From: Oscillospiraceae bacterium
GTDB taxonomy: Bacteria > Bacillota > Clostridia > Oscillospirales > Oscillospiraceae
Assembly: GCA_017448455.1 (NCBI GenBank)
Contig: JAFSLL010000289.1
Coordinates: 1 to 62,398 of the forward strand
DNA: 62,398 nt
Direction: 5' to 3'
In this document: positions 41,756-52,658 of the stretch, one piece after another
Numbering within the stretch: position 1 is the first letter of the stretch
Layout of the letters: the number at the start of each line of letters is the position of its first letter
Notes under the pieces: model-generated
What the model saw: the letters and a program-made list of their open reading frames with translations, nothing else
Database searches by the model: none
What the model was told of the DNA's origin: nothing
Translations under genes and position numbers: made by a program

Positions 41756-43957
41756 TCAGAAGGCGATCCGGACTTCCTTCATCAGGCAGTCGCGGCTGCT
41801 GCCGCCCACATAGATGCGGAAGAGACCGTCCTCCAGGCGGTACTGTCCTTCGTTGTCATAGAAGCCCATGTCCTGTTTCGGCAGCGTGAAGCGGATTTCC
41901 CGCTCCTCTCCCGCCGCCAGTGTCACGCGGGAATAGTTTTTCAGTTCCTTCACCGGCCGTACGAGGCTGGCTGCCACGTCCTGCAGATAGAGCTGGGCCA
42001 CCTCTGTGCCTTCGCGGTCACCGGTGTTCTTCAGTTTTACGCAGATCTCCAGCGCGTCCGCAGTTTCTTCGACGCACAGCCCGTCATACGCAAAGCCTGT
42101 GTAGCTCAGGCCGTGGCCGAAGGGATACAGCGCGTCCCATGGCGAGTCGAGATAGCGGGAAGTGAATTTGCTCTTGCTGCCGGGGCGGCCGGTGCTGGGA
42201 TGGTTGTAATAGACCGGGCACTGCCCCGTCACCGCCGGGAAGGAAGAGGAGAGCTTGCCGGAGGGATTCACGTCGCCCAGCAATGCTGCCGCGACCGCGT
42301 CGCCCATCCGGATGCCCAGGTGCCAGGCCTCCAGAATGGCCGGCAGATGCTCCGCCTCCCAGCCGAGTGCCAGCGGCCGCCCGTTCATCAGCACGGTGAC
42401 CACAGGCTTGCCGGATGCCAGCAGGCGTTCCAGCAGCGCGCGCTGTCCGCCGGGCAGGGAGATCTCCGCTTTGGAGCTGGCCTCGCCGGACATGGCGTCG
42501 GTCTCGCCCACGACGGCAACGATCACGTCGCCTTCGCGGCAGGCGCGGTCCGCTTCCTCAAAGTCAATCTCGCCCTCCGGTCCGCCGCAGGGGAAGTAGC
42601 GGACGTCCGCGCCCGCGGCTTCCAGGCCCATGCGGATGGATACGCAGTCTTCCGGTTTCCAGGCCATGGCCCAGGCGCCGCAGACCTCGTTGGCGTCGTC
42701 CGCCAGCTTGCCTACCAGGCTGATCTTCTGCCCGCGGCTCAGCGGCAGGAGACCGCCTTCGTTCTTCAGCAGCACCATGGATTCCTCGGCCGCCTTCCGG
42801 CAGAGGGCGATGTGTTCCTCGGGCAGGCCTTTCTCGTAGGCCTCGATCAGGGCTTCCGGCACGTAGGGGTTCTCAAACAGGCCGAGCCAGACCTTGACCG
42901 AGAGGATGCGGCGCACGGCCTCATCGATGACCGCCATCGGAACGGTGCCTTTTTCCACTTCGGCAGCCAGATGGTCCTTGTAGATGTGGGTGCCCATGTC
43001 CATGTCCATACCGGCCAGGGCCGCCTGAACGCCGGCGTCCCGGTCATCCTCGGCAATGCCGTGGATCACGCACTCCCGGATGGCGTTGGCGTCGCTGACG
43101 ACGAAGCCCTCCAGACCGAAGTCCTTCTTCAGCACATCGCGCAGAAGCCACCTGTTGACCGTGCAGGGGACGCCGTTGAGGTCGTTGAAGGCAGCCATGA
43201 CCGTGGCCGCGCCTTCGTTCATCGCCGCACGGAAGGCGGGTAGGTAGACGTTATACAGGTTGGAGACGGACATGGAGGTGGTGTTGTAGTCGCGGCCGCT
43301 TTCGCAGGCGCCGTAGGCCACATAGTGTTTGGTGCAGGCCGCCACATAGCTGAGTGGACTGCTCTGATCATTCTGCAGGCCGCGGATCTTCGCGCGGGCG
43401 AAACGGCTGCCGAGCAGGGGATCCTCGCCGGGACCTTCGGAGACGCGGCCCCAGCGGGAGTCCCGCGCAGCGTCGATCATCGGGGCGAAGTTCCAGTTGA
43501 TGCCGTGCGCGCGGGATTCCGCCGCTGCCATATGCGCAGTCTCCTCAAAGAGCGCATCATCAAAGCTGCAGGCTTCGCCGATGGCGATGGGGAATACACT
43601 GCGGAAGCCGTGAATCACGTCGAAGCCGATGATCAGCGGGATGCCGAGGCGGCTCTCCTCTACGGCGATTTTCTGCAGGGCGTTGTTCTGCCGCGGATCC
43701 TTGACCATCTGGCTGCCCACACGCCCGGCGCGGATATCGTCCTCATGGAAATCCTGTTTGGCGTTGGCCATGATGCGGCCGAACTCCTCCTGGGAAATCC
43801 GGCCGTCGGTGAGCATCTCGATCAGCTCGGAAAAGGGTACGTCGAAGCCGCCCACGATGGAGGGGGACTCCTGGTTCATCTGGCCGATCTTTTCCTCCAG
43901 CGTCATGCGGGAGAGCAGATCTTCCACAAAGTTTTTCTGGTCCTGTGTCAGTTTCAT
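41756..43957 (-). CDS. GH3-family beta-glycosidase
   Basis: A 733-aa enzyme that probably removes beta-linked glucose or xylose. The GH3 N-terminal barrel (~1-340) has GFDVIHGFRSVFPI, the substrate-binding KHY motif (TKHYVAYG) and the nucleophile Asp in VVSDANAI (~285). The C-terminal alpha/beta domain (~380-600) has MVLLKNEGGLLPL and GEASSKAEISLPGGQ, and a fibronectin-III-like domain (~630-733) ends it. No signal peptide, so cytoplasmic. Last gene of the operon headed by the Gfo/Idh/MocA gene at 52658. Confidence 0.93.
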   Translation of the reverse strand: MKLTQDQKNFVEDLLSRMTLEEKIGQMNQESPSIVGGFDVPFSELIEMLTDGRISQEEFGRIMANAKQDFHEDDIRAGRVGSQMVKDPRQNNALQKIAVEESRLGIPLIIGFDVIHGFRSVFPIAIGEACSFDDALFEETAHMAAAESRAHGINWNFAPMIDAARDSRWGRVSEGPGEDPLLGSRFARAKIRGLQNDQSSPLSYVAACTKHYVAYGACESGRDYNTTSMSVSNLYNVYLPAFRAAMNEGAATVMAAFNDLNGVPCTVNRWLLRDVLKKDFGLEGFVVSDANAIRECVIHGIAEDDRDAGVQAALAGMDMDMGTHIYKDHLAAEVEKGTVPMAVIDEAVRRILSVKVWLGLFENPYVPEALIEAYEKGLPEEHIALCRKAAEESMVLLKNEGGLLPLSRGQKISLVGKLADDANEVCGAWAMAWKPEDCVSIRMGLEAAGADVRYFPCGGPEGEIDFEEADRACREGDVIVAVVGETDAMSGEASSKAEISLPGGQRALLERLLASGKPVVTVLMNGRPLALGWEAEHLPAILEAWHLGIRMGDAVAAALLGDVNPSGKLSSSFPAVTGQCPVYYNHPSTGRPGSKSKFTSRYLDSPWDALYPFGHGLSYTGFAYDGLCVEETADALEICVKLKNTGDREGTEVAQLYLQDVAASLVRPVKELKNYSRVTLAAGEEREIRFTLPKQDMGFYDNEGQYRLEDGLFRIYVGGSSRDCLMKEVRIAF

Positions 43958-43981
43958 ATGTTCTCTCCTGTCAGTTGGTTT

Positions 43982-51498: not shown

Positions 51499-51512
51499 TC
51501 GTTTCTCCTCCC

Positions 51513-52658
51513 TTAAAATTCCATGGCTTCGGGCATTTCAAACGTCGTGGTCATTCTGTACGGCGCTCCGGTCTTCACGCTGACGTCAAAGGCGTTGATG
51601 CCCTCGGTGACGTGACGGCAGAGTTCCGCGCTTACGCGGGGTTTGCGGCCTTCGACAATGGCCTTCGCCATGTCGGACACACCCGAGCCGCGCTGATTCC
51701 CCACGCGGGGGGCCAGAGTCTCGATTTCGGTAAAGAGCGCCGCGCTCTCCGGTCCGTAGATCGCACCGAGTCTAGCGCCCATGTTGTCACCCTTGCTATT
51801 GACCAGCGCCTTGAAGTCTTCGGCCTTCAGGAGCTTGATGGGGCCCATCATGGCATTGGGATCGGGGGCGAAGAGGACGCCTTCGGTACCGTAGATTTCC
51901 ATGCCGGGGAGGCTGGACTTCCACTCGTCATAGGTCAGGTTCAGGTTGCCGACAACGCCGTTTTCAAACTTCAGGACAGCGCAGTAGTTGGTGTTGACTT
52001 CCACCTCAACATCCTTATCCCAGATTTTACGAACATCCCAGCCGCGGTTGGCATAGCAGAAGAGGCTCTCGATGGGACCAAGCAGGGTAACGAGCGAGGT
52101 CAGGAAGTAGGGGCCCATATCCAGTGCGGGGCCGACGCCCTTCTTGTACAGATAGCCGGCGTTCGGGTGCCAGAGATCCGCGCCGGGGCCGACATAGTTC
52201 GCCGTGACGCTGATGACCTTGCCGATGGCGCCTTCGTCCAGCAGCTTGCGGACCGTCTGGAATTCGGGTGTCAGGAAAGTGTCCGGCGCGGAGCCGACAA
52301 AGAGGCCCTTTTTCGCCGCGAACTCGACGATTTCGTTTGCCTGCTCCAGGCTGTCTGCCAGGGGCTTTTCGCAGTAGACGTGCTTGCCCGCCCTCAGCGC
52401 GGCCATGGTGAGACTGTAGTGCGAGGCGGGGTTGGTGAGAATGATGACGATGTCCACCTCGGGATCTGCCAGCATCTCCTCCGTGGTGTAGACCTTGGGG
52501 ACGTTCCAACGTGCCGCCGCGGCCTTCGCGGCCTCGGTGTTCAGGTCTGAGCAGCCTACCGGACGCAGGTTTTTAAACACGGGTCCCAGGGTGCCGAAAT
52601 AGTGATCGCAGTACACGCCTGTGCCGATCACGCCGTAGCCGAGAACTCTTTCTTCCAT
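51513..52658 (-). CDS. Gfo/Idh/MocA oxidoreductase, candidate glycoside 3-oxidase
   Basis: A 381-aa NAD(P)-dependent enzyme and first gene of the operon. Rossmann motif [16 protein letters not shown] motif CEKPLAD (~96-102) and a C-terminal domain with [20 protein letters not shown] (~175-195). The [18 protein letters not shown] box is typical of members acting on glycosides, including the 3-oxidases that start C-glycoside breakdown. It is 14 nt upstream of the TIM-barrel subunit. Proposed role: oxidise C3 of the glycosyl group so that the deglycosidase can release the aglycone. Role is inferred from context. Confidence 0.85.

Follow-up and report, generated by a model that had tools for sequence, protein, structure and literature searches.

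A conserved nine-gene operon in an Oscillospiraceae genome with a predicted role in the breakdown of decorated aryl C-glucosides

Contig JAFSLL010000289.1 of the Oscillospiraceae bacterium assembly GCA_017448455.1 (62,398 nucleotides (nt), called the window below) carries a run of nine minus-strand genes from position 52658 down to 41756. In order of transcription they code for a Gfo/Idh/MocA oxidoreductase (Gfo1), homologues of DfgA and DfgB, a second such oxidoreductase (Gfo2), a second TIM barrel (TIM2), a GPH symporter, an esterase, a GH43 enzyme and a GH3 enzyme. The locus raises the question of what a C-glycoside deglycosidase (CGD) does in one operon with an importer and three hydrolases. 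Our results suggest, with a probability of roughly two in three, that the operon serves the import and complete cytoplasmic breakdown of aryl C-glucosides carrying extra sugars or acyl groups, most likely C6-glucosyl flavones of grasses.

The predicted deglycosidase pair and its accessory enzymes

The core of the operon is a pair of adjacent minus-strand genes, 50626-51498 and 50172-50612, separated by 13 nt. The first codes for a TIM barrel of 290 amino acids (aa) that matches Pfam AP_endonuc_2 and aligns without gaps with the EuCGD alpha subunit of Eubacterium cellulosolvens (7bvs_A), with 211 of 289 residues identical (73%). The 146-aa product of the second shares 92 of 146 residues (63%) with the beta subunit 7bvs_B and matches the CGDB family PF19906, formerly DUF6379, at 5e-38, a match that the first-pass annotation had named as a check. 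Mori et al. identified the Mn2+ ligands (1His/2Glu/1Asp/1Lys), the base histidine and a supporting glutamate in AgCGD2 and PuCGD (PMC8563793). Mapped through the PuCGD numbering, they correspond in DfgA to E155, D187, H224, K226 and E260 at the Mn site, H157 as the base and E262 as the supporting residue. All seven residues are invariant in the 22 alpha-subunit sequences of our alignment A2 (window included). Another 23 distinct CGD alpha sequences, taken from related genomes, keep all of them as well. The window alpha subunit has no lid domain, and its loop 121-133 is of the EuCGD type. Judged by these alignments, the pair is an EuCGD orthologue and a predicted C-glycoside deglycosidase of the lid-less EuCGD type, and the catalytic core is a known enzyme type rather than a new one. 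The first-pass annotation had proposed both this function for the DUF6379 and TIM-barrel pair and a full metal-ligand set in the first TIM barrel; both proposals are supported, and the pair is nearer to a characterised enzyme than had been claimed.

EuCGD cleaves 3-oxo C6-glycosides and was inactive on the C8-glycosides tested, and docking names Leu128 of its alpha subunit and Pro115 of its beta subunit as clashing with a C8-glycoside (PMC8563793). Both residues are kept in the window, as Leu128 and Pro114, the latter corresponding to EuCGD Pro115. Across A2 the leucine does not vary in any of the 22 alpha sequences, and the proline is invariant in 18 aligned beta sequences, an alignment made without L013, L015, L018 and L019. 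Because both docking-named residues are kept, C6-glucosides of the isovitexin, isoorientin and mangiferin type are predicted as DfgAB substrates. Puerarin, orientin and vitexin, which had been suggested earlier, are C8-glucosides and fit poorly with the inactivity of EuCGD on the C8-glycosides tested and with the two clash residues kept here.

Homology candidates for all four steps of 3-keto-glycoside breakdown are found in the operon, namely Gfo2 and Gfo1, DfgAB, and TIM2. Gfo2 (49113-50156, minus strand) belongs to the Gfo/Idh/MocA family by Pfam, and its best match among solved structures is DgpA (7xr9, 129 bits), followed by glucose-fructose oxidoreductase (118 bits). DgpA is a C-glycoside 3-oxidase reported to oxidise the glycoside and to reduce 3-oxo-glucose in a ping-pong cycle (PMC11239390), and Gfo2 is a probable DgpA-like glycoside 3-oxidase or 3-keto-glucose transhydrogenase. 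A Gfo2 homologue (50%) directly adjoins DfgAB in another locus (L066). Gfo1 (51513-52658, minus strand, 381 aa; Pfam GFO_IDH_MocA), the first gene, is more distant from DgpA, which ranks fifth at 69.5 bits with the single sequence and seventh with a profile. It is 93-94% identical in 13 relatives. We also surveyed 200 sampled genomes of the window's family, its own genome included, at the cut-off of PF19906 itself for CGDB, E <= 1e-40 for TIM2 and E 1e-50 for Gfo1. Gfo1 occurs in 8 of these 200, among which the window's own genome alone also has CGDB; outside the close clade Gfo1 is not linked to CGD. We infer that Gfo2 acts as the oxidase; Gfo1 would be a 3-keto-glucose reductase or, alternatively, a second 3-oxidase.

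TIM2 (48174-49097, minus strand) is also an AP_endonuc_2 protein by Pfam. A single-sequence phmmer search of solved structures (E 1e-5) matched only the uncharacterised 2zds. A profile of 15 TIM2 sequences (A1) matched 2zds at 5e-23, then 8ro4, titled '2-hydroxy-3-keto-glucal hydratase', at 2.9e-9, and then IolE at 1.8e-7. Hydration of 2-hydroxy-3-keto-glucal comes after elimination in the pathways of strain PUE, of levoglucosan and of A. tumefaciens (PMC10628242, PMC7676230). In the family survey CGDB was found in 10 genomes and TIM2 in 17. Both occur in 6 genomes, where chance would give 0.85 (Fisher p 2.6e-5), and leaving out the own genome gives 5 of 199 (p 1.8e-4); the test ignores shared ancestry. 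In all six genomes CGDB and TIM2 are no more than about 5 kb apart. TIM2 is most likely a 2-hydroxy-3-keto-glucal hydratase on this evidence, and the operon would then hold a full cycle of oxidation, elimination, hydration and reduction.

The remaining four genes, all on the minus strand, point to uptake and to the removal of side groups. The product of 46728-48119 is a GPH-family cation symporter (TIGR00792, 361 bits; PF13347, MFS_2) and a probable glycoside importer. The gene at 45623-46657 codes for an alpha/beta-hydrolase esterase (PF20434, BD-FAE) with a GFSAG motif; it scores 130 bits against the lp_1002-type arylesterase model, under its cut-off of 300. The GH43 enzyme (43982-45607), of arabinofuranosidase/xylosidase type, has a GH43_C2 domain by Pfam and the motifs PDPS, DAS and PEAPH, which we take to be catalytic, and its closest solved structures are the beta-xylosidase 5z5d, BoGH43B and BoGH43A. 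The GH3 enzyme (41756-43957) has an Fn3-like domain by Pfam and is of beta-glucosidase type and BglX-like, as judged from NF011678 (672 bits, cut-off 666) and its solved-structure matches. The family assignments of the first-pass annotation were thus confirmed by Pfam for all nine genes. A crude hydropathy check found no signal-peptide-like N-terminus in the catabolic enzymes of the operon, GH43, GH3 and the esterase included, and these enzymes are probably cytoplasmic.

Conservation of the unit and its promoter

The intergenic gaps are 13-24 nt, except for 54 nt before the GPH gene and 70 nt before the esterase gene. The latter value presupposes that the esterase starts at ATG 46657, its probable start; the GTG start at 46768 in the open reading frame (ORF) listing would overlap the GPH gene. 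With this start, the earlier description of nine same-strand genes with gaps of 13-70 nt agrees with the ORF positions. A simple consensus scan of 41300-53000 left the TIM2/GPH boundary free of promoter-like and terminator-like matches on the minus strand. The sole minus-strand terminator-like site lies within Gfo2 and both minus-strand promoter-like sites lie within GH43, and the both-strand totals are near the shuffle level (7 vs 9.2 terminator-like and 4 vs 2.8 promoter-like sites).

Relatives of the locus were collected in a single scan of one-per-species genomes with the alpha subunit as query, which gave 24 loci, 16 of the close clade and 8 more distant (L011, L013-L019). Loci cut by contig ends (L007, L012, L021, L024) were left out of the 12 informative loci; L021 and L024 come from one metagenome-assembled genome (MAG), as do L023 and L025. 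All nine genes are present in the same order and on the same strand in 8 of the 12 (L002, L003, L004, L006, L009, L010, L020 and L022, the last with GH3 split into two pieces), so the nine-gene run is not due to chance. In L008 a sugar-type ABC importer is placed between Gfo1 and DfgA. The 8 distant loci lack the nine-gene set, and among Gfo1, Gfo2 and TIM2 only TIM2 (62%, in L016) is closely matched there. The titles of the 24 loci's genomes name goat and buffalo abomasum and sheep, and most are MAGs titled Ruminococcaceae, Oscillospiraceae or Clostridia. The prefix RUG in some MAG titles stands for rumen. The source bacterium is uncultured and probably rumen-dwelling.

The combination of hydrolases with a CGD is recurrent, since it is seen in two further loci. 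L065, from a genome drawn from the family of G200 (a record titled Lachnospiraceae) and outside the clade, has DfgAB with GH3 (72%), GH43 (56%) and GPH (65%) no more than about 7 kb away and in a different order; genes for a ROK protein and for an ABC importer of sugars are also present. L094 holds GPH (58%, truncated at the edge of the locus), a GH35/42-like gene, GH43 (63%), two ORFs, a Gfo gene, a beta-alpha pair of PuCGD type, another Gfo gene and TIM2 (62%). The link of CGD with GH43, GH3 and GPH that had been proposed for the window is therefore conserved in the clade and recurs in part in other lineages. A separate observation concerns the transporter: at the same place in L005, L009 and L023 the GPH protein is only 61-63% identical, against 68-81% for the neighbouring esterase and GH43 and 88-91% for TIM2 where present, suggesting from sequence that the transporter has been swapped in these loci.

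EuCGD-like alpha subunits are rare in the genomes sampled. They were found in 5 of the 200 genomes of the own family (window query, E 1e-30), in 1 of 391 class genomes with EuCGD as query (E 1e-60), this being the own genome, in 2 of 98 relatives of G200 and in 8 of 397 genomes of the family of G200. The alpha subunit closest to EuCGD among the 391, 98 and 397 genomes is that of G1067 (92%). Two partial genomes of the sister genus g59 in the same family, G059 (0.9 Mb, 69% complete) and G140 (1.6 Mb, 77% complete), have 14 and 25 PF19906 matches vs 1 in the own genome (loci L027-L028, L031-L045, L059-L061 and L063). All are over the cut-off and one is a half-length piece; the family survey scored 21 of 31 candidates of G140, giving a lower count there than 25. 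In G059, 9 of the 14 CGDB genes are on contig 22. The 16 distinct alpha sequences examined from the two genomes all keep the seven catalytic residues, and one 40-kb stretch that was scanned has several CGD genes among housekeeping-type genes and others in tandem. Genus g59 looks, from these sequences, like a lineage specialised in keto-glycoside lyases. In L095 (5689-7101) and L096 (10180-11592), the CGD beta and alpha subunits are fused in a single 470-aa ORF with DfgB- and DfgA-like halves; Gfo and TIM2 genes lie nearby, and L095 also has a TIM barrel and a ROK protein by Pfam.

The 14 regions upstream of Gfo1 that were compared (the window and 13 loci) are almost unalignable except for a palindrome, GTGAC-N4-GTCAC, and the hexamer TATACT. 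Both are kept in 14 of 14, the palindrome with up to one mismatch in one arm. In the window, the palindrome GTGACACATGTCAC lies at 52741-52754 and the predicted -10 hexamer, where the window reads TATATACT, at 52713-52718 on the minus strand. The distance from the palindrome centre to TATACT is 29 nt in 13 regions and 28 nt in L003. When the hexamer is placed at -12 to -7, from which the transcription start is deduced, the palindrome of GTGA-N6-TCAC pattern is centred at -41.5. This is the class II position of CRP, and the palindrome is a predicted class II activator site. The hexamer was missed by a sigma-70 scan, with no -35 match there. A search of the 3.5-Mb genome for the strict motif GTGACRYRYGTCAC gave a single occurrence, the one at 52741-52754.

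A gene divergent from the operon (52849-53478, plus strand, start moved from TTG 52702) codes for a CRP/FNR-family regulator that is YeiL-like, with a cNMP_binding domain (PF00027, 28.5 bits, cut-off 27.5) and a match to PRK10402 below its cut-off. A homologue (46-55%) is present upstream of Gfo1 in all 13 loci holding a 93-94% identical Gfo1, up to about 5.5 kb away, and it is not divergent in L006, L007 and L020. We infer from this arrangement that the operon is regulated by the adjoining CRP/FNR-type protein. In L005 (position 6833) and L010 (position 6660), a second copy of the palindrome lies just upstream of the CRP-type gene, there parted by about 2 kb from Gfo1, hinting that the gene may regulate itself.

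The proposed pathway and its alternatives

In the pathway that we propose, a glycoside such as isovitexin or isoorientin with O-glucosyl, pentosyl or feruloyl groups would enter through the GPH symporter. As the esterase, GH3 and GH43 have no signal peptide, the acyl, glucosyl and pentosyl groups, respectively, would be removed by them inside the cell. Gfo2 would then oxidise C3 of the C-linked glucose, and DfgAB, as a Mn2+ heteromer, would eliminate the aglycone after His157 takes the C2 proton, giving 2-hydroxy-3-keto-glucal. TIM2 would hydrate this product to 3-keto-glucose, which would be reduced to glucose by Gfo1 or by ping-pong exchange on Gfo2, with NAD+ regenerated. The net reaction would convert C-glycoside and water to aglycone and glucose, and the CRP/FNR-type regulator would switch the operon on at its class II site. 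The four-step chemistry is established for levoglucosan (PMC7676230) and has been described for phlorizin, with preliminary evidence for hydration (PMC10628242).

The substrate is the weakest part of this model. The GH43 enzyme would fit pentosylated C-glycosyl flavones, and isovitexin arabinosides occur in oat; an open-access literature search did not document them. An esterase and a GH3 enzyme ahead of a C6-type CGD fit, as far as their predicted functions go, isovitexins with feruloyl and glucosyl groups of the barley type. In barley leaves, saponarin (isovitexin 7-O-glucoside, described as the main flavone of the primary leaf) occurs along with isovitexin 2''-O-feruloylglucoside, and isovitexin 2''-O-glucoside was found in one wild barley accession (PMC12492401).

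Several observations weigh against the C6-glucosyl-flavone pathway, beginning with its substrate. No isovitexin pentoside is seen in the excerpts of the barley source (PMC12492401), the substrates of GH43, GH3 and the esterase are not tellable from sequence, and the C6 argument stands on two residues from a docking model. The nine-gene unit is also not universal: no GH3 was seen up to 2.8 kb from GH43 in L005; GPH, esterase, GH43 and GH3 are all missing from L008 and L025; and L023, where GH3 follows only after a further stretch of about 2.7 kb, has no TIM2. At the cut-offs used, DfgA, CGDB, TIM2 and Gfo1 had no match in three congeneric genomes of the sample, and the own genome bin (3.5 Mb) has a contamination of 7.3%. 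The promoter palindrome ends in TCAG in L006, L007 and L020 and has one other mismatch in L022. Its looser form GTGAC-N4-GTCAC occurs 16 times in 231 kb of 13 relatives, 9 times at this promoter and 7 times elsewhere, among them the two copies next to the CRP-type gene in L005 and L010, and two-mismatch matches in the window are at the chance level (2 found vs 2.37 expected). For TIM2, the top structural match is the uncharacterised 2zds and the hydratase 8ro4 ranks only second. Moreover, 11 of the 17 sampled genomes with TIM2 have no CGDB over the cut-off. Two of these, G147 and G070, have Gfo2 (73-74%) adjoining TIM2 (81-83%) at L091:6076-8889 and L092:6694-9507, with no CGD over the cut-off in the genome; TIM2 and Gfo2 are thus not specific to C-glycosides. 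They look like a portable module for oxidation and hydration, paired here with a C-glycoside eliminase.

In an alternative that we regard as unlikely, the operon serves general 3-keto-glycoside breakdown, mainly of phenolic O-glucosides. DfgAB, Gfo2 and TIM2 would then replace a glycosidase by an oxidative route, and C-glycosides would be a side activity. PuCGE also cleaves 3-keto O-glucosides (PMC10628242), so that C-glycosides need not be the main substrate, and DfgCD removes O-linked glucose (PMC11170127). In addition, the Gfo2-TIM2 pairs that lack a CGD are followed by an ORF of 271-277 aa, which in G147 codes for a different TIM barrel and in G070 is 277 aa long. This arrangement is possibly an O-glycoside version of the pathway; a solved-structure search with the TIM barrel of L091 gave no match, and its role as an O-glycoside eliminase is only a guess. 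Against the O-glucoside explanation, the CGD of the window falls in the EuCGD branch and keeps the C6 pocket residues, and the GH3 beta-glucosidase of the operon could already process O-glucosides.

It is improbable that the operon is a unit for hemicellulose oligosaccharides (GH43, GH3, esterase and GPH) that acquired a C-deglycosylation module by chance. The GH43 and GH3 enzymes do resemble enzymes acting on xylan, xyloglucan and beta-glucan, and L008 and L025, with a CGD module and no hydrolases, indicate that the parts are separable. However, a single gene order is kept in 8 of the 12 informative loci, one conserved promoter lies upstream of the CGD part with no promoter- or terminator-like match at the TIM2/GPH boundary, and GH43 and GPH are near a CGD in L094 and L065 as well. 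A third alternative, an inactive CGD pair or one whose substrate is a non-flavonoid keto-sugar (for instance a keto-oligosaccharide or a microbial C-glycoside), is highly improbable given the intact catalytic set and its strong conservation, although the activity is a predicted one and the aglycone tolerance of relatives is broad (PMC8563793).

Two neighbouring genes had been associated with the operon in the first-pass annotation. A GH78 gene at 39602-41503, 252 nt downstream of GH3, is a genuine Pfam match (59 bits). The scan placed no minus-strand terminator in the stretch that parts it from GH3, and it is a possible tenth gene of the operon. In the eight full relatives, the roughly 1 kb of sequence that could be inspected past GH3 holds no GH78. 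Beyond the own genome, the fetched loci give a single GH78 match, 28% identical and lying upstream in L004. The GH106-like gene (57859-60447), on the opposite strand and in another gene group, scores 19.6 bits with Pfam, short of the cut-off of 29, and its membership of the system is not supported. The earlier suggestion of rhamnose decoration depends on these two genes, neither of which is shown to belong to the conserved unit. Further out, 55237-60447 (plus strand) holds a second GPH symporter, an aldo/keto reductase and the very divergent GH106-like protein, with an AraC-type gene on the opposite strand (53507-54610, minus). A Pfam scan of five minus-strand ORFs in 29479-38254 gave no match. 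The plus strand of 29563-38269 codes for phosphoglucose isomerase and then for an ABC transporter of Opp/Dpp type with five genes. We take two of its proteins to be unusually long, the binding protein (789 aa) and the second permease (553 aa). At 6063-19474 (minus strand), two very large proteins (1953 and 1906 aa) have VWA and SpaA domains, one of them also an FctA-type domain, and an LPXTG-anchor protein (12125-13543) sits between them, as in a pilus-like locus.

Meaning of the locus and comparison with known systems

We tentatively propose, with slightly less than even confidence, that an uncultured, largely ruminant Oscillospiraceae clade possesses a pathway for C6-glucosyl flavones of grasses that is complete in itself and has its own regulation, comprising uptake, deacylation, removal of O-linked sugars, cleavage of the very stable C-C bond, hydration and reduction to glucose. 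In the literature covered, E. cellulosolvens is the only ruminant bacterium named as degrading C-glycosides (PMC11170127). If the proposal is true, C-glycosyl flavones of forage would be a real carbon source in the rumen, and the second TIM barrel would gain a function as the hydratase partner of a C-deglycosidase. The locus supplies enzymes and a substrate class open to testing as well as a candidate hydration gene for this cluster type, and its promoter and regulator could report the natural inducer. Bitter et al. asked whether the scarcity of the substrates is consistent with C-deglycosidases being so widespread (PMC10628242), and the side-chain hydrolases of the operon, which point to decorated plant C-glycosides, bear on this question.

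The closest known system is that of E. cellulosolvens. DfgAB of the window is orthologous to EuCGD (73% and 63%) with the same metal site and the same two C6-pocket residues, and the dfgABCDE cluster also has TIM-barrel and Gfo/Idh/MocA genes. L064, with an alpha subunit 92% identical to that of EuCGD, has the gene order dfgA-dfgB-TIM (279 aa)-Gfo; in the locus comparisons, ORF identities were used only if BLAST-labelled or Pfam-scanned. L064 has no match to the window TIM2 at E 1e-8 and its Gfo2 match is just 27%, so the accessory enzymes appear to differ from the E. cellulosolvens type as far as the genes at the DfgC and DfgD positions of L064 represent it. GPH, esterase, GH43 and GH3 gave no match in the 13.9 kb of L064, whose contig stops inside the Gfo gene.

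The dgpABC operon of the Dorea-like strain PUE similarly combines a Gfo oxidase with a CGD pair, and oxidation, elimination, hydration and reduction have been described for it (PMC10628242). In contrast to the lid-less type of the window, PuCGD of this strain is C8-specific and has a lid domain, and its alpha subunit is 34% identical to that of EuCGD (PMC8563793). The levoglucosan (LgdA/B1/B2/C) and A. tumefaciens phlorizin (GlycDH/AtOGE/AtHYD/Gfo) pathways share the four-step chemistry and the set of two TIM barrels with oxidoreductases, and differ from the window in that its eliminase is of the heteromeric CGD type.

The gene surroundings are best compared with those of Enterenecus sp900549885, a human gut bacterium from a study of mangiferin, in which DfgA and DfgB are adjacent with carbohydrate-processing genes around them (PMC12101588); no hydratase or regulator is mentioned in the excerpts of this paper. 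Among the matches listed in a search of open-access titles and abstracts, which leaves subscription papers mostly uncovered, there was no CGD operon with a hydratase, GH43, GH3, an esterase and its own regulator. The first-pass annotation had called the union of a CGD with GH43, GH3 and an esterase in one operon new. Given the Enterenecus genes, the novelty is restricted to the specific gene set. Thus, the enzyme type is known, and what appears to be new is the full gene set together with its likely dedicated on-switch.

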